Below the pieces are notes generated by a model. That model was not told where the DNA came from. It was given only the letters and a program-made list of their open reading frames with translations, and ran no database searches. Shown piece by piece: positions 6,837-25,737 of a stretch of 25,737 bases of DNA. Location: positions 1-25,737 of the IMG/VR virus record IMGVR_UViG_3300026097_000091; one strand, given 5' to 3'. The DNA comes from a virus. How positions within the stretch are numbered: the first letter of the stretch is position 1; each line of letters opens with the position of its first letter. A program made the position numbers and the translations under genes.

Positions 6837-8708
6837 ATGCCCCTTACCAAGCTCCAGTTCAAGCCGGGGATCAACCGGGAAGTTACCGCGTACACTAATG
6901 AGGGTGGGTGGAACGATGGAGATAAGGTCCGTTTCCGTTATGGCTTCCCGGAGAAGATTGGTGGCTGGGACAAGCTCGGTAACAACCAGTTCTTGGGTAA
7001 GGGCCGTGCAATGCACCCCTTTACCGACCTTGCCGGCACCGAGTTCACTGGACTAGGTACCGCATTTAAGTATTACATTCTCGAAGGCACGGGGTTCAAT
7101 GACATTACCCCTATCCGTGCGACATTTTCTAGCCCAGATACTGACAACTGCTTTGACACGACCGACGGCTCAACAACCGTCGTAGTTAATATCACGGCTC
7201 ACGGCGCGGAGACCGACGACTTTGTGATTTTCAGCGGCGCGGTTGCTGTGGGCGGTGTGCTTGCCGATGACTTAAACCAAGAATTCCAAGTCACGAGAAT
7301 CGACGCCAATAGTTTTAGCATTGTTGTAGACAACGCCGCAACGTCCACTGCCACAGGCGGTGGTACTTCGATTGAGGCAGAGTTTCAGATCAACACGGGT
7401 ATTGACCTTGTTGTCCCCGGCACAGGCTGGGGCGCGGGTACGTGGTCTCGCGGAACCTGGGGTTCGGCATCTTCTACTTCGATTATCACCGAGCAGCTCC
7501 GGCTGTGGACGCACGACAACTTTGGTGAAGACCTGTTGATTAACGTCCGTGACGGCGATATTTACTATTGGGATTCGTCAGCAAGTGTCCCCGGAGCTTT
7601 CCAGCGAGCACAAAAACTTTCTACGCTTGCGGGTGCCGACGGTTTTGCACCCACTATTGCCAAGAAAGTCTTGGTTTCTGACCGTGACCGGCACGTCATT
7701 GCGTTCGGCTGTGATCCGGTAGACAACCTTGGCGTGCAGGATCCACTGTTGATCCGGTTCTCAAATCAAGAAGATCCACTGGAATGGTTCCCGACAGCAA
7801 CCAACACTGCGGGCGACCTACGAATTGGTACGGGTTCCAAAATCGTCACTGCTGTCGAAACGCGGCAACAGGTACTGGTAATTACGGACGAATCAGTCCA
7901 CGCGATGCAGTACCTCGGACCGCCGTTCACCTTTGGTATTAACCAGATCTCAGAAAACACCACAATTATGGCGCCAAACGCAGCGATTGCGGTGGACGAT
8001 ACAGTGTTCTGGATGGGTGCTCGGGAGTTCTATGTGTACGCGGGTAACGTACAGCGCCTGCCTTGTACTGTTCGCGATTATGTCTTTAATGACTTTAACT
8101 ACGACCAGAAAGACAAGGTGTTTGCTGGCACTAACTCCTCGTTTGGTGAGGTGTGGTGGTTCTACCCATCCTCGTCCGCGACTGAGATCGACAGCTATGT
8201 TGTCTACAACTATTCGCAGCAGATCTGGTATTACGGCAAGTTGACCAGAACGGCTTGGGTTGATCGCGGAATTAACACCTTCCCGTTAGCCGCTGGTGTA
8301 GACGGTTATTTATACGAGCATGAGTCAGGCTGTTGCGACGGTAGCACCAATCCAAAGACACCGATCAATTCGTATATTGAGTCGAGCCCGATAGACATTG
8401 GCGACGGTGATCGGTTTGCATTTATCCGGCGTTTGATTCCAGACGTGACGTTTAGGGGTTCTACAGAAGAGGACGTGTCTGTAAACATGATCCTGAAGGC
8501 ACGCAACTTCCCAGGCGAAGCCTACAGAGATGATCAGGACGCCCTGATTACTCGATCAGCCACTATCCCTGTTGAACAGTACACTGATCAAGTTAATGTT
8601 CGGCTTCGTGGCCGATCTTTTGCAATGCGCGTAGAGTCTGACACTTTAGGAACAGCATGGAGGTTGGGTAGTCCCCGGGTAGATATCCGACAGGACGGTG
8701 GTCGATGA
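6837..8708 (+). CDS. P22 gp10-like tail hub / DNA-stabilisation protein, copy B
   Basis: A 623-residue protein of a family widespread in marine podoviruses. The N-terminus is diagnostic: LQFKPGINRE, NEGGWNDGDKVRFRYGFPEKIGGW. The core has propeller-like repeats (FGCDPVDNLGVQDPLLIRFS, VLVITDESVHAMQYLG, MAPNAAIAVDDTVFWMG, FAGTNSSFGEVWWFYP, YVVYNYSQQIWYYG). The C-terminus is beta-rich (NVRLRGRSFAMRVES, AWRLGSPRVDIRQDGGR), as in gp10-like proteins that seal the portal channel. About residues 108-183 form an inserted beta-rich domain (TTDGSTTVVVNITAHG, FSGAVAVGG) that resembles segments databases label as E1-FCCH-like; that label need not imply ubiquitin chemistry. It starts 7 bases after the chaperone-like gene and overlaps the next gene by 4 bases (ATGA). 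Confidence 0.7.
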   Translation: MPLTKLQFKPGINREVTAYTNEGGWNDGDKVRFRYGFPEKIGGWDKLGNNQFLGKGRAMHPFTDLAGTEFTGLGTAFKYYILEGTGFNDITPIRATFSSPDTDNCFDTTDGSTTVVVNITAHGAETDDFVIFSGAVAVGGVLADDLNQEFQVTRIDANSFSIVVDNAATSTATGGGTSIEAEFQINTGIDLVVPGTGWGAGTWSRGTWGSASSTSIITEQLRLWTHDNFGEDLLINVRDGDIYYWDSSASVPGAFQRAQKLSTLAGADGFAPTIAKKVLVSDRDRHVIAFGCDPVDNLGVQDPLLIRFSNQEDPLEWFPTATNTAGDLRIGTGSKIVTAVETRQQVLVITDESVHAMQYLGPPFTFGINQISENTTIMAPNAAIAVDDTVFWMGAREFYVYAGNVQRLPCTVRDYVFNDFNYDQKDKVFAGTNSSFGEVWWFYPSSSATEIDSYVVYNYSQQIWYYGKLTRTAWVDRGINTFPLAAGVDGYLYEHESGCCDGSTNPKTPINSYIESSPIDIGDGDRFAFIRRLIPDVTFRGSTEEDVSVNMILKARNFPGEAYRDDQDALITRSATIPVEQYTDQVNVRLRGRSFAMRVESDTLGTAWRLGSPRVDIRQDGGR

Positions 8709-18545: not shown

Positions 18546-19994
18546 CTAGAGTAACCATTCTTTGCCCTGCTCCCCAAGGACCTCTCCGGCAATGTCTATC
18601 TTTGCTCGGAGGGCCTTGAGGATTTTTTCGTCCACAGTTCCGGGCGTGACAAAATCAATGTAGGTACAGTGGTTGGGTTGACCAATACGGTGAATGCGAT
18701 CTTCTGACTGCAGGCGTATCTCTAAATCGTAACTGTTACTAAAGTAGACCATAGTAGATGCTGCCGTCAGGGTGATGCCGTATCCGCCTGTTTTAGGCTG
18801 TCCGATAAAGAACCGTAGCGGCGAATCAGGATCTTGGAAGGTGCGCACAATGTTAGTACGTTCTTCAGTTTCCGTGGCTCCGTAGTAACACGCCACGCTA
18901 TCTTCGCCATATTCCTTGGCTATCGCTTCACGGATCTGGAGGATGTTGTGTGTAAACGTGGCCCAAATGACTACCTTACCGCTTGTCTCTTCGAGCACTT
19001 CCATGAGATTGGAAAGGCGGACTCGATCAACCTCTTGGATCTCCCCGTCATCAGTAGTGAGGATTCCACAAACTATCTGTTGCATACGCATAATCTGAGT
19101 CAGGACACTAGCCGTGGTAGCAAGATCACCGTTCTCAAGTTTCGCCAAAGCTAGCCTGCGCATCTGCTCATACACCGGCTTCTGCTTATCTGTTAACGGT
19201 ATAAACCGGGGTTGGTAAACTTTTTCTGGTAAGTCCAGGCATTCTTCCTTAGTTATTCGCGAGCTAAAGCTCTCTAATCGCTCTGTCAGCTCGTCTAATC
19301 GTCTGTATCCGACGATATCTTTGAAGACTTTCGGTCCCATCGTTTTGTTAACAACGACGGCGTAGCGGCCTTGAAACGCGTAATAGCTTTTGAACCCCAA
19401 GGCATCTTCGCTCAAGAAATTACATTGACTAAACAGATCCATCGGAGATTTTGTGATCGGGGAACCGGTCAGGATACGTTTGTACTTTGCTTTCTTGCCT
19501 AGCTTCACAACGTTTTTAGTTCGCTGGGCGCTTCGATTCTTGATGGTTGTGGACTCATCAACCACCATCATGCTGTCTGGATACCGCATCAAAAAGTACA
19601 TCGCGTGGTCTGCGCCTTTTGCAGAGGACAGTGCCTCGATGTTCATGACAAGGATAGTCAGGCCCTCTTTACGATTCATCAGCTCGTGAAACTCATTAGC
19701 GTAGGTCTTCGTGTGGTTTGGTTGCCACTGCAAAATCATGGTCTCTTCCAGCATATCGTCAGGCAGGTGCGCCGGAAATTCTTTGTGAGTCCAGTTACCG
19801 AAGACGCCTTTTGGCGCTAAAATCAGCGCGGCATTGATGCTCTTTTGCTTGTACAGGATACCAATATTGTCGATTGCAACTTTTGTTTTACCCGTACCCA
19901 TCTCCATGAAAAGCCCGTAATACGGCCTGTTCCACGATCCACGCAACACGGAATCCTGATGCGCAAACGGTTTTGTTTTAAATTCGTATTTCAT
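18546..19994 (-). CDS. SNF2-like DEAD/DEAH-box helicase (SF2)
   Basis: A 482-residue SF2 ATPase of the SNF2/Rad54-like group. It has an N-terminal Q-like segment (KPFAHQDSVL), Walker A MEMGTGKT (30-37), motif Ia LILAPKGV (57-64), motif II VVDEST (144-149; Ser-Thr replaces the usual Ala-His), motif III LTGSPI (175-180), motif V GYGITLTAA (404-412) and motif VI QSEDRIHRIGQ (429-439). Both RecA domains are complete. There is no nuclease or DNA-binding domain fused. It would be an ATP-driven dsDNA translocase; replication, recombination or protection of phage DNA are all possible. It is the only minus-strand gene in the window, convergent with the lysis gene and divergent from the replication operon. 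Ribosome site AGGGG reads on the minus strand at 20001-20005, 6 bases from the ATG. Confidence 0.85.
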   Translation of the reverse strand: MKYEFKTKPFAHQDSVLRGSWNRPYYGLFMEMGTGKTKVAIDNIGILYKQKSINAALILAPKGVFGNWTHKEFPAHLPDDMLEETMILQWQPNHTKTYANEFHELMNRKEGLTILVMNIEALSSAKGADHAMYFLMRYPDSMMVVDESTTIKNRSAQRTKNVVKLGKKAKYKRILTGSPITKSPMDLFSQCNFLSEDALGFKSYYAFQGRYAVVVNKTMGPKVFKDIVGYRRLDELTERLESFSSRITKEECLDLPEKVYQPRFIPLTDKQKPVYEQMRRLALAKLENGDLATTASVLTQIMRMQQIVCGILTTDDGEIQEVDRVRLSNLMEVLEETSGKVVIWATFTHNILQIREAIAKEYGEDSVACYYGATETEERTNIVRTFQDPDSPLRFFIGQPKTGGYGITLTAASTMVYFSNSYDLEIRLQSEDRIHRIGQPNHCTYIDFVTPGTVDEKILKALRAKIDIAGEVLGEQGKEWLL

Positions 19995-20035: not shown

Positions 20036-20047
20036 ATGGCTTCACAA
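20021..20047 (-). promoter_or_regulatory. Weak candidate promoter for the SNF2-like gene
   Basis: On the minus strand, TTGTGA (20042-20047) is followed after 15 bases by TATAAA (20021-20026). Transcription from it would give a leader of about 20 bases with AGGGG before the ATG. It overlaps the plus-strand candidate promoter, so the two would compete for polymerase. Short spacing makes this a weak call. Confidence 0.25.
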
Positions 20048-20083
20048 GGGCGACACAAAGTCCTGAAACACGAGGAAAGAAAA

Positions 20084-20659
20084 GTGAGTGATATCAATGA
20101 ACTGTTTGAAGAAGACTTCGAGGCCCAAGCCTCGGGCATTGATAAAGTCAATTCAGACGAACTTAAATCAGTCGCTGCGATAGCTCGCACGATTGCTTCT
20201 AAAGAAGAAGAGTTAGCGCACTTAGAGGCGCAAATCAAAGAAACCAAAAAGGAGCTTCTCAAGCTTACTGACGAAGACCTCCCGGGTTTGTTGCACGAAA
20301 TGGGTCTAGCTAAGTTCAGCCTTGAAGATGGTTCAGAAGTCAGTGTGAAGCCGACTTATGGCGCGTCTATCAAAGTTGATAATCGTGACGCCGCCTTCCA
20401 GTGGCTTCGCGACAATGGCTATGACGACATTATCAAAAACAGCGTTATCTGTTCGTTTGGCCGAGGCGAAGACGAAATGGCAACGCAATTCTCACGAATG
20501 GCCGCAGAGCAGGGATATGTCCCTGAAAACAAAACCGAAGTACATCCGCAAACACTCAAAGCTTGGGTCAAAGAGCGGGTAGAAACCGGTGAAGAGTTCC
20601 CTATGGAGCTTTTTGGAGCCTATGTAGGTCAACGTGCATTTATCAAGAGGACTAAGTAA
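20084..20659 (+). CDS. Conserved phage protein with coiled coil, first gene of replication operon
   Basis: I chose the GTG at 20084 (191 residues, VSDINELFEEDFEAQ) because GAGGAAAG lies 4 bases before it. The in-frame ATG at 20036 would add 16 residues but has no ribosome site and lies on top of the candidate promoter. Residues 36-62 (ARTIASKEEELAHLEAQIK) form a clear coiled coil. The rest has LPGLLHEMGLAKFSLEDG, SVKPTYGASIKVDN and a C-terminal RVETGEEFPMELFG. The layout, coiled coil then a short beta domain, recalls siphovirus Gp157-like proteins, but I cannot claim homology. Its stop overlaps the SSB-like gene's ATG by one base, so the two are probably made together and may work together on single-stranded DNA. 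Function unknown. Confidence 0.6.
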   Translation: MSDINELFEEDFEAQASGIDKVNSDELKSVAAIARTIASKEEELAHLEAQIKETKKELLKLTDEDLPGLLHEMGLAKFSLEDGSEVSVKPTYGASIKVDNRDAAFQWLRDNGYDDIIKNSVICSFGRGEDEMATQFSRMAAEQGYVPENKTEVHPQTLKAWVKERVETGEEFPMELFGAYVGQRAFIKRTK

Positions 20660-21438
20660 TGACAACTAAACAAGTAGCAGAGAAGCAAGACAATGCAGTC
20701 GCATTACTCGACGAGTCAATGTTTGAAGAAGACGCAGGCGGTGGTCTGCAGGGTATTGGATCAGAAGACCTTGCGCTTCCATTCCTTAAAGTCTTATCCC
20801 GTCAGGACCCAGCACTGGATGAGTTAGAAGACGCTAAAGCGGGCGACATCCTAAACACAGTGACCGGAAAGGTCTACAAGGGTAAGGATGGTATCCGGGT
20901 AATTCCTTGTGCGTATCAGAAGCGGTTCATCGAATGGGCTCCCCGGGGCTCAGGTAGCGGCGCTCCTTTAAATATCTACAACACATCTGCCGAGTGTCCA
21001 AAGACAGAACGTTCGTCTGAAGACAACAAAGAGTATGTGGTTGGAGGTAACGGTAGCTACATCGAAGCAACCGCACAGCACTACGTGATTGTTTTAGATG
21101 AGGCGGAAGGGCCATCGACTGCTTTGATCGCGATGAAATCCACACAGCTCAAGAAAAGCCGTAAGTGGAACTCCATGGTGATGTCACGGAGCTTTGTCGG
21201 TAAAAACGGACCGTACACTCCGGCTTCGTACTCACACATCTACAAGCTCACCACACTGTCCGAAGAGAACAGCAAGGGCTCTTGGCACGGATGGGAGATC
21301 GCTTTGGAAGGTAAGATTGAAGACGTCGGCATGTACCACATGGCCAAAGAGTTTGAGAAATCAATCAATGCCGGAGAAGTGACTGTGAAGCACTCCGATG
21401 GGGAAGATGAAAGAGCAGGTGAAGAAGCACCGTTCTAA
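20659..21438 (+). CDS. Putative single-stranded DNA-binding protein
   Basis: A 259-residue protein of a family common beside phage primase and polymerase genes. Characteristic segments are LALPFLKVLSRQDPAL, AGDILNTVTGKVYKG, GIRVIPCAYQKRFIEW followed by APRGSGSGAP, and a beta-rich core with aromatic and basic residues (STQLKKSRKWNSMVMSRSF). It ends in an acidic tail of about 13 residues, DGEDERAGEEAPF. SSB and T7 gp2.5 proteins also end in an acidic tail with terminal Phe that recruits partners. The DNA-binding role is inferred from context and tail; I see no standard OB-fold signature by eye. It is translationally coupled to the coiled-coil gene (TAATG) and followed by a strong terminator, so it may be produced in excess of the downstream replication proteins. 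Confidence 0.5.
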   Translation: MTTKQVAEKQDNAVALLDESMFEEDAGGGLQGIGSEDLALPFLKVLSRQDPALDELEDAKAGDILNTVTGKVYKGKDGIRVIPCAYQKRFIEWAPRGSGSGAPLNIYNTSAECPKTERSSEDNKEYVVGGNGSYIEATAQHYVIVLDEAEGPSTALIAMKSTQLKKSRKWNSMVMSRSFVGKNGPYTPASYSHIYKLTTLSEENSKGSWHGWEIALEGKIEDVGMYHMAKEFEKSINAGEVTVKHSDGEDERAGEEAPF

Positions 21439-21443
21439 TCTGT

Positions 21444-21466
21444 GGCGGCCTTCGGGCCGCCTTTTC
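21444..21466 (+). terminator. Rho-independent terminator inside the replication operon
   Basis: Perfect 7-bp stem GGCGGCC (21444-21450) and GGCCGCC (21455-21461) closed by a TTCG loop, followed by TTTTC. The closing pair makes the extra-stable cUUCGg tetraloop. It begins 5 bases after the stop of the SSB-like gene and ends 4 bases before the primase ribosome site (AAGGAG, 21470-21475). Confidence 0.85.
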
Positions 21467-21480
21467 TCCAAGGAGTTTGT

Positions 21481-23031
21481 ATGTCAGACAGTAAGCGTTT
21501 TGCTGAAATCTTCGATGGCTTGAAGGCTGCTTACGGCACCTACGAAATACAAGATAAAAAAGCCAACGGGAAGAACACAGGCAAGGCGGCAGTTAAGCGC
21601 GAACCACGCACCGCGGCACACTGGGAAGGTCACCTTTCTGGGAAAGGCGCGGCTATTGGCATCGTACCTATTAATGAGGACAACGAGGTCAAGTGGGGCT
21701 GTATCGACGTGGATCAGTATCCGCTCGATCACAAAGCATTAGTTGGGAAGATACGAGAGCTTAAATTGCCACTGGTGGTCTGCCGGTCAAAGTCGGGCGG
21801 GGCACACTGTTTCCTTTTTTCGGATGATTGGATAACAGCAAAGTTAATGCAGGACACCCTGAACCACATCGCGGCCTCGCTAGGCTACGGTGGCAGTGAG
21901 GTGTTCCCGAAACAAATCCAGCTACATTTAGACCGCGGCGACGTGGGCAATTTCCTGAACATGCCCTACTACAACGCGGAAGACGGCTTGCGGTATGGAA
22001 TCCTGGACGACGGGTCCGCCGCCACACTCGAAGAATTTTTTGAACTGTACGAGAATCACGTACAGACAGCCGAGCAGATCAAGAAACTGCAGGTACAAGA
22101 CACGATCATTACAACGGACGCGATCTTAAACGACGCACCGCCTTGTATCGTGCATTGCTGTTCACAGGGTTTCCCTGAAGGCACACGGAACAACGGCCTG
22201 TTCGGCATCGGTGTTCTGTTACGTAAAGCGGTCCCCGACACATGGGACACGGCCATTCAGGAATGGAACGTTAAGCACATGGACCCGCCCCTCAAGCTTG
22301 ATGAGGTCTCCATTGTCGCCAAACAGGTTAGTAAGAAAGATTACGGCTACCGTTGTAATGACGCGCCTTATAGCTCGTATTGCAACAAGGAGCTTTGCTA
22401 TACCAAGAAGCATGGTGTGGGCAACGCTCAGTCCGGAGCCGCCATTGCTAACCTACGTAAGTACAACTCGACTCCGCCTGTTTGGTTTTTAGACGTCAAC
22501 GGCATCCCCTTGGAGCTGGATACAGAGGCGCTATTGAACCAAATTGACTTTAAAAAGGCGTGCTTAAATCAGCTTAACTTCATGCCACAGACGCAAGAGA
22601 AGCGTGCCTGGGAGTCGCGAATCAACCAGTTACTGACAGAAATGCAGAACACCGAGGGCGCGATCATTGAAGTTAGTGAGGATGCATCGGTAGACGGACA
22701 GTTTTATGACTATCTGGAAGAGTTCTGTACATCTATGCAGAGAGCGAACGATAGAGAAGAGATCTTACTCCGTCGTCCATGGACCGACGATGAAGATAAC
22801 CTAACGTACTTCCGGCTCAAAGATTTTGAGTCGTATCTGCGTAAGAACAAGTTCTTTGAATACAAGTCACATAAGATCGCGCAACGGCTCAGGGACCGTA
22901 ATGGTTTCTCCAAGCTGTTGAAGATCAAAGGCAAGCCGACTCGGGTTTGGGCAATTCCAGCATACGAAGAGGCTGTTACCAATATCAAACAACCTGAATT
23001 TGGGGGACAGAATGAAGAGGCGCCATTCTAA
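21481..23031 (+). CDS. Archaeo-eukaryotic-type primase (AEP, TOTE-like)
   Basis: I chose ATG 21481, 5 bases after AAGGAG. The in-frame GTG at 21442 would place coding sequence through the terminator. The 516-residue protein has an AEP domain: GCIDVDQY with metal-binding Asp76 and Asp78, the CRSKSGGAHCFLF strand with His109, SEVFPKQ (139-145) and GNFLNMPYYN (156-165). This is the pattern of the AEP domain named after TOTE elements. A second domain has RNNGLFGIGVLLRKA and four conserved-looking cysteines (222, 292, 301, 306; Y-R-C..YC....C), probably a metal site. The C-terminus is helical and ends in GGQNEEAPF. No helicase motifs are fused, so unwinding must come from another protein. It would make primers for the family A polymerase downstream. 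It overlaps the UvrD-like gene by one base. Confidence 0.75.
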   Translation: MSDSKRFAEIFDGLKAAYGTYEIQDKKANGKNTGKAAVKREPRTAAHWEGHLSGKGAAIGIVPINEDNEVKWGCIDVDQYPLDHKALVGKIRELKLPLVVCRSKSGGAHCFLFSDDWITAKLMQDTLNHIAASLGYGGSEVFPKQIQLHLDRGDVGNFLNMPYYNAEDGLRYGILDDGSAATLEEFFELYENHVQTAEQIKKLQVQDTIITTDAILNDAPPCIVHCCSQGFPEGTRNNGLFGIGVLLRKAVPDTWDTAIQEWNVKHMDPPLKLDEVSIVAKQVSKKDYGYRCNDAPYSSYCNKELCYTKKHGVGNAQSGAAIANLRKYNSTPPVWFLDVNGIPLELDTEALLNQIDFKKACLNQLNFMPQTQEKRAWESRINQLLTEMQNTEGAIIEVSEDASVDGQFYDYLEEFCTSMQRANDREEILLRRPWTDDEDNLTYFRLKDFESYLRKNKFFEYKSHKIAQRLRDRNGFSKLLKIKGKPTRVWAIPAYEEAVTNIKQPEFGGQNEEAPF

Positions 23032-24557
23032 TGTATCGGATATTCGGACCGCCCGGGACGGGAAAGACGACACGCCTACTGGGGATGGTGGACGAAGCTT
23101 TGGGGAAGGGCACACCGCCAAGCTCTATCGCTTTCCTAGCGTTCACAAAGAAGGCGGCTACGGAGGCCAAGGAACGCGCTATGGATCGTTTCAGCCTCAA
23201 GGAAAACGACCTACCCTACTTTCGGACGATTCACTCTTTGGCCTACCAAATGGTGGGTATGAAGTCAGAGCAGATGATCCAAGCGGAGCACTTCAAAGAG
23301 CTGGCTTCTTATATCGGAATCGATCTCAACACGACAAGCGACGCGCTAACCGAAGAAGACATGGGAATGCGTGGCTCACAGCATCCGATTCTGTCTCTGA
23401 TAAACCTGGCCCGTCTCAGAAAGATATCTTTATGGGAGGCGTACAACGAGACGGAGATTGATGAGAAGTGGGCCGCGATCGAGTATACCAGTACCGCTTA
23501 CAACAAGTTTAAAGAAATCAACCACTTATACGACTTCACGGATTTGTTAGAGCTGTTTATTGCAGAGGGGCATCGTTACTGTCCTAACTTCTCCCTATGT
23601 TTTCTCGACGAAGCACAGGATTTGAGCCCCTTACAGTGGGACATTGCACACATCTTGGATAGCAAAAGTGAGCGAATGTACGCTGCAGGGGACGATGATC
23701 AAGCAATCTATCGGTGGAACGGTGCCGACGTTGAGCACTTCATCCACTTAGACGGACCTTCCGAAGTGTTAGAGCAGTCCTACCGCGTGCCGTTGTCCAT
23801 TCACCAGTACGCAGAATCCATATCCAACCGTATACACAGCCGGTATACCAAGTCTTACGGCTACAAGCCCAACACTGTGGGGTCGGTTAACCACGTCGAA
23901 ACCATGACGGGCATCGACATGAGTACCGGAACGTGGCTCGTACTAGCGCAAACGCGCTACATGCTTGAAGAACCTAAGCAGGCTTTGCAGAGCATGGGGT
24001 ACCTGTTTCGTTACCATAACGGAAAACGATCGGTGTCAGAGAAAATTAGTCTAGCAATCAACGGTTGGACACAACTGTCCAAAGGTAATCGGATTGCGGC
24101 AGATACAGCCAAAGCAATCTATAGCTACATTAGTGGCAACGACTCGGGTATAGCTAAAGGGTATAAAAAGTACGCTTTTGACGACTCCAGGACATATTCA
24201 TACGACGATTTAGTCAAGGAGTGTGGATTAATTGTAGATAAATCAATGATATGGCACGAAGCTATGGATAAGTTACCCAAAGTAGACCGTGCATACATCA
24301 CTGCCGCGCTCCGTCGGGGAGAAAAGTTCAATGCCACGCCTCGGATTACTCTGTCCACGATTCACGGATCAAAGGGCGGCGAAGCCGATGGCGTCATTCT
24401 ATATACCGACCTGAGTTGGGCGGCAATTAAGAACACACAATCACAACAGGCTGTCGATGATCTGCTACGGGTTTTCTACGTAGCGGTGACTCGGGCTAAA
24501 AACGCACTGTTTTTAGTGGCGCCAGAAGAGTTCGAGAGGAGTTTCTTTGGAATATGA
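23031..24557 (+). CDS. UvrD/Rep-like SF1A helicase
   Basis: A 508-residue SF1A helicase. Walker A GPPGTGKTT (6-14), motif Ia FLAFTKKAATE (35-45), Ic RTIHSLAY (65-72), motif II LDEAQDLSP (192-200), motif III AGDDDQAIYRWNGA (219-232), motif IV EQSYRVP (248-254), motif V STIHGSKGGEADGVIL (442-457) and motif VI LLRVFYVAVTRAK (478-490). All ATPase motifs are intact. It is shorter than cellular UvrD (about 720 residues), mainly through reduced 1B and 2B inserts, as in other phage members. It probably translocates 3'-5' on ssDNA and may serve as the replicative or repair helicase, since no ring helicase is in view. It sits between primase and polymerase genes: TAATG overlap upstream, ATGA overlap downstream. 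Confidence 0.88.
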   Translation: MYRIFGPPGTGKTTRLLGMVDEALGKGTPPSSIAFLAFTKKAATEAKERAMDRFSLKENDLPYFRTIHSLAYQMVGMKSEQMIQAEHFKELASYIGIDLNTTSDALTEEDMGMRGSQHPILSLINLARLRKISLWEAYNETEIDEKWAAIEYTSTAYNKFKEINHLYDFTDLLELFIAEGHRYCPNFSLCFLDEAQDLSPLQWDIAHILDSKSERMYAAGDDDQAIYRWNGADVEHFIHLDGPSEVLEQSYRVPLSIHQYAESISNRIHSRYTKSYGYKPNTVGSVNHVETMTGIDMSTGTWLVLAQTRYMLEEPKQALQSMGYLFRYHNGKRSVSEKISLAINGWTQLSKGNRIAADTAKAIYSYISGNDSGIAKGYKKYAFDDSRTYSYDDLVKECGLIVDKSMIWHEAMDKLPKVDRAYITAALRRGEKFNATPRITLSTIHGSKGGEADGVILYTDLSWAAIKNTQSQQAVDDLLRVFYVAVTRAKNALFLVAPEEFERSFFGI

Positions 24558-24781
24558 AAACGATATCAGATGGTAGCACTGCTAAGTATTACGAGTTGCC
24601 AGAAGGGGCGACTGAACTACAGCACTTAATCAGTAATAAAAACATGAATGCTCAAATAGGAGAAATCTTTCGAGCCTGTTACCGATACGGCGAAGTAGAG
24701 CACAGTGAGATGCTCCGCGATGCCAAAAAGATCCGGTTTTATGCGCAGGCGGAGATTGAGCGGTTGGAGAAGTTAAAATGA
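24554..24781 (+). CDS. Small DUF3310-like protein
   Basis: A 75-residue protein. The central part (ELQHLISNKNMNAQIGEIF, then RACYRYGE and LRDAKKIRFYAQAEIERLE) follows the DUF3310-type pattern: a helix, a Gly-x-x-x-[KR]-A-x-[YW]-R turn, then a charged helix with Asp, Lys and an aromatic. Such small proteins are common in phage replication regions and their function is not established. It overlaps both neighbours by 4 bases (ATGA on each side), so it is embedded in the helicase-polymerase transcript. GAGGAG lies about 13 bases upstream of the ATG. Assignment to DUF3310 is by pattern only. Confidence 0.5.
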   Translation: MKTISDGSTAKYYELPEGATELQHLISNKNMNAQIGEIFRACYRYGEVEHSEMLRDAKKIRFYAQAEIERLEKLK

Positions 24782-25737
24782 ATAAAAAGCTACAGATGGC
24801 AATGTTCCCGCCAAAAACGGAATGGGTGCCGCCGATCGAGCTACCAGATCTATCTGACGCTAAAGTCATTGCCATTGACGTGGAAACACGCGACCCGGAC
24901 CTCAAAACGCACGGCCCAGGGTGGGCACGTGGCGTCGGAGAGGTGGTCGGCTACGCCATTGCAACCGAAGGATGGAAGGGCTACCTGCCTGTTAACCATT
25001 TAGGTGGGGGTAATCTGGACAAAAAGATTGTGTCTCGGTGGCTTAAAAAGGTTTTTGAGACGCCTGCAGATAAAGTCATGCACAACGCGCAGTATGATGC
25101 GGGCTGGATCAAACGCGAGGGCTTCACGCTCAACGGCAAGATTATCGATACCATGATGACCGCCGCACTGGTGGACGAAAACCGCTACAGCTACAGCCTG
25201 AACGCGCTTTGCTACGACCATCTGGGCAAAACCAAGTCCGAAAAGCTTTTGAACGAAGCCGCAAGCGACTTTGGTGTCGATCCAAAGGGTGAGATGTGGA
25301 AGCTGCCTGCAACTTACGTTGGACCTTACGCCGAGGTGGATGCCGAGCTGGCATTAGAACTGTGGCAATACTTTCAAACCGTCTTGAATCGAGAAGATTT
25401 GTGGGCGATACACGACTTAGAGACACGTCTGTTGCCGCATCTGGTTGATATGACCTACAAGGGTGTGCGAGTAGACGTGGACCGCGCTGAACGGACCAAA
25501 CAGGAGTTAATGAAACGTGAAAAAGATCTTCTCAAACGAATCAAAACAATGGTGGGAACGGACGTCGAAATCTGGGCTCCTGCATCACTGGCAAAAGCGT
25601 TCGATAAATTATCTATCCCTTATCCCAAAACGGATCGCGGTGCGCCTTCATTTACTAAGAATTTCCTTACAGATCATACACATGAATTTGCGAATATGGT
25701 TGTTGAGGCGCGTGAGATCAATAAAGCGTATGGGACG
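24778..25737 (+). CDS. polA: Family A DNA polymerase, N-terminal part (partial)
   Basis: Open for 320 codons to the window edge. The 3'-5' exonuclease domain is complete: Exo I IAIDVET (Asp34, Glu36), Exo II HNAQYD (102-107, Asp107) and Exo III YAEVD (Tyr184, Asp188), so proofreading should be active. From about residue 205 comes the thumb-like start of the polymerase domain: ETRLLPHLVDMTYKGVRVDV, then AREINKAYGT at the edge, usual for phage PolA. Finger and palm motifs lie outside the window. There is no 5' nuclease domain. Up to residue 320 I see no DnaJ-type insertion of the kind reported for the HMO-2011 polymerase; a later one cannot be excluded. The ATG overlaps the previous TGA by 4 bases, with GGAGAAG upstream. 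This is the likely replicative polymerase. Confidence 0.9.
   Translation, partial: MNKKLQMAMFPPKTEWVPPIELPDLSDAKVIAIDVETRDPDLKTHGPGWARGVGEVVGYAIATEGWKGYLPVNHLGGGNLDKKIVSRWLKKVFETPADKVMHNAQYDAGWIKREGFTLNGKIIDTMMTAALVDENRYSYSLNALCYDHLGKTKSEKLLNEAASDFGVDPKGEMWKLPATYVGPYAEVDAELALELWQYFQTVLNREDLWAIHDLETRLLPHLVDMTYKGVRVDVDRAERTKQELMKREKDLLKRIKTMVGTDVEIWAPASLAKAFDKLSIPYPKTDRGAPSFTKNFLTDHTHEFANMVVEAREINKAYGT

Follow-up and report, generated by a model that had tools for sequence, protein, structure and literature searches.

The window analysed here, a linear virus fragment of 25,737 nucleotides, carries an SSB-like gene and a gene coding for an archaeo-eukaryotic-type primase (AEP), and the question raised by this locus is why the two proteins end in the same five residues, EEAPF. 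Direct reading of both ends found this shared tip exactly as claimed in the preliminary description, codons included. The SSB-like protein ends in RAGEEAPF, the tip being encoded by GAA GAA GCA CCG TTC, and the primase ends in GQNEEAPF, encoded by GAA GAG GCG CCA TTC; a TAA codon follows in each case. Three of the five codons differ between the two tips, every difference being synonymous. Only these two of the 18 plausible genes of the window end in PF. As a background set, we used the open reading frames of at least 100 amino acids from 366 loci (IMG/VR and isolates) in which both genes are present: among 2847 such frames, 80 end in F and 5 in PF. The features of the region are listed in the table.

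Table. Features of the replication region of the window (aa, amino acids).
Feature	Position	Strand	Remark
SNF2-type helicase	18546..19994	-	candidate receptor, without tip
DUF7307 / Pam3 gp33-like protein	20036..20659	+	candidate receptor, without tip
SSB-like gene (Pfam PF23977 Pam3_Gp34)	20659..21438	+	259 aa
EEAPF tip codons, SSB-like protein	21421..21435	+	from sequence and conservation
Intrinsic-terminator-like hairpin (7 G-C pairs, 4-base loop) and T-run	21444..21471	+	between SSB-like gene and primase
Archaeo-eukaryotic-type primase (AEP)	21481..23031	+	516 aa, counted from ATG 21481
EEAPF tip codons, primase	23014..23028	+	from sequence and conservation
UvrD-like helicase	23031..24557	+	candidate receptor, without tip; ends SFFGI
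Family A DNA polymerase, 5' part, truncated at the window end	24778..25737	+	candidate receptor (cf. T7 gp5)

The primase can be assigned to the AEP superfamily by its profile matches (PF22548 AEP-TOTE, E 2e-11, 44.2 bits with a cut-off of 27; phrog_21866 primase, E 1e-90, 306 bits) and by motifs I (DxD; D76 and D78) and II (SGGxH; S105-GG-H109), whose residues are kept in at least 97% of 112 representatives, and primer synthesis is its predicted function. In the motif III stretch after E140, no acidic residue reached 97% conservation in the same representatives. The open reading frame as listed starts at GTG 21442, which borders a G+C stem (21444-21461); the start is probably ATG 21481, behind AAGGAG (21470-21475). 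The terminator-like hairpin formed by this stem possibly lowers the expression of the primase relative to that of the SSB-like protein; terminator-like sites are no more numerous here than in shuffles.

The SSB-like protein matches two families of unknown function, PF23977 Pam3_Gp34 (E 5e-60) and phrog_2402. Its AlphaFold2 model (pLDDT 81, pTM 0.73) contains long paired strands and a tail which is disordered from about residue 244, with pLDDT below 50 for residues 244-259. A Foldseek search of this model against the PDB returned mostly OB-fold proteins (SsbA, RPA and MCM N-domains), all of them weak matches (E of at least 0.009, probability of at most about 0.5, query TM of at most 0.20), and a single match named SSB was obtained in BFVD (E 8e-4). 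No Pfam SSB family matched the protein, a profile search against the PDB was negative, and so was hhalign against T7 gp2.5 (probability 0.2%) and Enc34 ORF6, so that no homology to the T7 or Enc34 SSB was found. The acidic disordered tail and the low-probability OB hits agree with the label "SSB-like", the lack of homology to a known SSB family does not, and a function as a true SSB, predicted from fold and tail, is plausible but weakly supported. Another reason for caution over the label is that a canonical SSB ending in DDDIPF or DDGIPF is encoded next to the SSB-like gene in three phages, VP2 and K228 of Vibrio and K21lambda1 of Klebsiella. In several phages of enterobacteria, Acinetobacter and Vibrio, these three and JeffCo among them, the SSB-like proteins themselves end in an acidic residue followed by M or Y. 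In ct3Et533 (MW202510), a tblastn search placed an SSB-like homologue where a minus-strand CDS is annotated beside the primase (7197-7946); the CDS may overlie this homologue, in which case the strand would be misannotated.

Both tips are conserved in homologues. In the clade of the window, all 97 distinct primases end in F, with P at -2 in 96 and E at -4 in 86, while 103 of the 110 distinct SSB-like proteins end in F (the other seven in W), 106 have P at -2 and most end in D[IT]PF. The tip is the best conserved part of two variable tails in this clade, identity at positions -5 to -40 being seldom above 50% in either of them. When cluster representatives of all groups are considered, the last residue is hydrophobic in 105/112 SSB-like proteins and 107/112 primases, and two to three of the last ten residues are acidic in both. 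Tipped primases that seemed to be without an SSB-like gene were, every one, on contigs cut at the primase. Homologues without the tip, which the preliminary description had named as an argument against its reading, do exist in part: the primases of HTVC023P, Pan1 and R26L lack it while their SSB-like proteins retain it, and the SSB-like proteins of three loci (L345, L361 and L392) terminate in arginines. In the three isolates with tip-less primases, the end of the primase gene shares 13-34 nt with the gene that follows, and this overlap may be the reason why the tip is missing. Conversely, phages without this primase keep an acidic, hydrophobic end on the SSB-like protein, such as EEF in PB1 and DEM in VP2.

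The idea that EEAPF, or even PF, is a universal tip did not hold, since other groups carry IV, DL, NF and further ends; judging from the groups compared, PF is one of several forms which the tip takes in different groups of phages. In the first search, 82 of 94 distinct pairs were PF/PF (SSB-like protein/primase). The HTVC027P clade (69 loci) combines DIV with [NYDT]IV (NIV, YIV, DIV or TIV), and the 023Pt_psg01 group combines TPY or SPY with mostly E[NHD]F. Two relatives of Acinetobacter phages carry PEL/PDL and TEL/PDL, Kokobel2 carries SEF/AEF, JeffCo carries DEY/SEF, and GNY/PNY is another matched pair. Many pairs of the ct3Et533-like group are alike only in acidity and terminal F (QHF/EVF, KHF/IPF).

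Similarity of the two tips was scored with BLOSUM62 over the last three residues and compared with 5000 shuffles of the pairs, after the primases had been collapsed at 70, 60 and 50% identity. Tips of the same genome resembled each other more than shuffled ones at each level: the score was 219 against 73 expected for 46 clusters (reached in 0/5000 shuffles), 113 against 26 for 32 clusters (p=0.0008) and 45 against -7 for 13 clusters (p=0.006). This covariation is between groups, and clustering and shuffling leave part of the shared descent in. The last residue alone gave a weak match (p=0.011, 0.044 and 0.63, respectively), and strict co-changes on branches of the tree numbered 2 against 1.2 expected (p=0.34). 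Of the proposal that the tips are conserved and covary in homologues, conservation and same-genome similarity therefore stand, whereas co-change at the level of single branches is not significant. Conservation in both families and covariation between groups support protein-level selection on both tips, as had been proposed.

The tip is restricted to two proteins in the genomes read. None of the four neighbouring genes is a third carrier: across loci, the helicases end mostly in L, I or R and the gp33-like protein in K. Likewise, -IV ends occur in only 2 of the 87 CDS of HTVC027P, which are the SSB-like protein and the primase.

A wider set of tipped proteins was found in two chi-like phages (Casjensviridae). 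In Enc34 (NC_019524), the primase, the SSB, the exonuclease, the RdgC-like protein, the small terminase subunit, ORF3 and ORF17 all end in an acidic residue followed by V, mostly as DDEV or EDEV, and in Pseudomonas phage SS2019XI (NC_053013) all seven orthologues end in an acidic residue followed by L, mostly as DDDL. The orthologues, ORF3/gp74 and ORF17/gp08 among them, are 27-45% identical. Seven matched V-to-L differences out of seven would be hard to explain without a single reader, with the limit that the case concerns two genomes and that the orthologue sets were picked after the ends had been seen. More distant relatives (L413, Isf-Pm1 and Carli) retain the shared acidic tip only partly. 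The small terminase subunit is a puzzling carrier of an SSB tip.

Since both families preserve their tips and the tips covary from one phage group to another, the best reading of their evolution suggests that both proteins use one phage-encoded docking site. The single site claimed in the preliminary description is supported to this extent, at the level of sequence evolution only. That both tips are docking peptides for such a site, most likely on another protein of the replisome, is the explanation we favour, with a confidence that falls somewhat short of even. The site would be a hydrophobic pocket accommodating the last side chain, with basic residues at its rim for the preceding acidic residues. 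The flexible tails of the SSB-like protein and of the primase would each present a docking peptide, and both proteins would be recruited to the site and compete for it, so that the coating of single-stranded DNA would be coupled to priming by a hand-off between them. As the pocket evolved, both tips would follow it. Candidates for the owner of the site are, in this order, the neighbouring family A DNA polymerase, which would play the part of T7 gp5, and a helicase. The gp33-like gene is a constant neighbour of the SSB-like gene and its product gave a good model (a 50-residue helix and an alpha/beta domain; pTM 0.69), but this model has no meaningful match in the PDB and the protein was not retained as an identifiable reader of the tip. 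In phages without AEP primase, such as PB1, the SSB-like gene is again preceded by a gp33-like gene.

The receptor could instead be the SSB-like protein itself, whose tail would fold into its own DNA-binding groove or that of a neighbouring molecule and be imitated by the primase, which would in this way dock on DNA coated by the SSB-like protein; the tips would match because one groove reads both. Tails of T7-type SSBs do occupy the groove of a neighbouring molecule in the crystals of the Enc34 and T7 proteins (PMC5686142), and human PrimPol, an AEP enzyme, docks on RPA via a motif that is acidic and contains a Phe (PMC5457501). A receptor of this kind would account for the near-constant motif of the SSB-like protein and for the acidic hydrophobic ends kept in phages without this primase, and it is the best account of the presence of an SSB tip on the exonuclease, RdgC-like protein and small terminase of chi-like phages. 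Against it, the OB fold of the SSB-like protein is weakly indicated and its sequence shows no link to T7 gp2.5 or Enc34 ORF6. We consider this explanation rather unlikely, while the groove of the SSB-like protein remains a serious second receptor candidate after the polymerase.

It is less probable still that no site is shared, the two tails having separate partners or a general role such as stability or self-inhibition of DNA binding, and their likeness being inherited or convergent. In its favour, DNA-binding proteins of phages commonly have an acidic tail with a hydrophobic last residue, the branch-level test was not significant and many ct3Et533-like pairs match loosely. This explanation fits poorly with specific matched tips such as IV/IV and EL/DL, limited to two proteins in HTVC027P, with an excess of same-genome similarity that persists after clustering, and with the V-to-L difference across seven proteins of chi-like phages.

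Imitation of the host SSB tail DDDIPF, which would recruit host readers such as PriA, RecO, ExoI and the clamp-loader chi subunit, seems very unlikely. The D[IT]PF ends that prevail among the SSB-like proteins in the clade of the window recall this highly conserved host motif (PMC5872125), as do the canonical SSBs of VP2 and K21lambda1, both of which terminate in MDFDDDIPF. The tips nevertheless vary (DIV/NIV, PEL/PDL, TPY/ENF), and a host pocket whose own ligand does not vary would not bring about this diversity. SAR11 strain HTCC1062 is the isolation host of both HTVC023P and HTVC027P, yet their tips are unlike (SVPF and DIV/NIV, respectively), which makes a host protein an unlikely reader.

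Finally, DNA copying between the two genes, already judged unlikely in the preliminary description, is rejected on the codons of 81 distinct tip pairs, where 84 of the 160 comparisons at matching residues show the same codon against 90.5 expected from pooled codon usage, and a ribosome-binding-site constraint, which the sequence GAAGAGG located 10 nt before the helicase ATG could evoke in the window, is rejected as a general cause of the primase tip, which persists where the next gene begins more than 25 nt downstream.

Taken more broadly, these tips may form a lineage-specific C-terminal code, in which each phage would have one pocket and all proteins joining replicating DNA would be read by it. 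The carriers would be the SSB and the primase and, in chi-like phages, also the exonuclease, the RdgC-like protein and the small terminase; pocket and tips would change together, and would have done so independently in at least three unrelated types of replisome. We regard such a code as possible, with more doubt than confidence. The shared acidic tails of T7 have so far been treated as a trait of a single model phage, and a T7-like arrangement is now found in an abundant group of aquatic phages whose primase and SSB-like protein are both unrelated to those of T7. The matched pairs represent a natural experiment, with pockets expected to accept PF, IV, DL or NF, and the last few residues of a protein of unknown function could serve to assign it to the replication machinery of a phage, as the chi-like set suggests. 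Searches of the open-licence literature for a previous description of such tips, in phages with an AEP primase or in chi-like phages, found none, and one may exist elsewhere.

Four known systems can be compared with this locus. In chi-like phages of the Enc34 type, an acidic tip is common to an SSB of the DUF2815 family, a primase and other proteins acting on DNA, as it is here to two proteins; these proteins of chi-like phages are unrelated to those of the window, and the tip is DDEV or DDDL and occurs on at least seven of them. Human PrimPol is likewise an AEP-family enzyme binding an SSB by means of an acidic motif and a Phe, the key Phe of its C-terminal motif lying in an OB-fold cleft of RPA (PMC5457501), but this motif is internal rather than at the chain end and is not known on any RPA tail. 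The D[IT]PF ends of the window clade resemble the bacterial SSB tail; in bacteria, the primase reads the SSB tail (PMC5872125), whereas in the window the primase itself carries a tail, and the tips vary between phage groups. A parallel with T7, where gp2.5 docks on gp5, as gp4 does, was already drawn in the preliminary description. There, gp2.5 ends in DGDF and gp4 in NDTDF, the only acidic-F ends among the 56 T7 CDS, and the gp4 tails bind the gp5 DNA polymerase (PMC8835902). An AEP primase in the window corresponds to a primase-helicase in T7 and Pam3_Gp34 corresponds to gp2.5, neither pair being homologous, and the tips are PF, IV, DL and others where T7 has DF. The comparison thus fails for the proteins and stands for the behaviour of their tails: in both systems, an SSB or SSB-like protein and a primase carry an acidic stretch with a terminal Phe.
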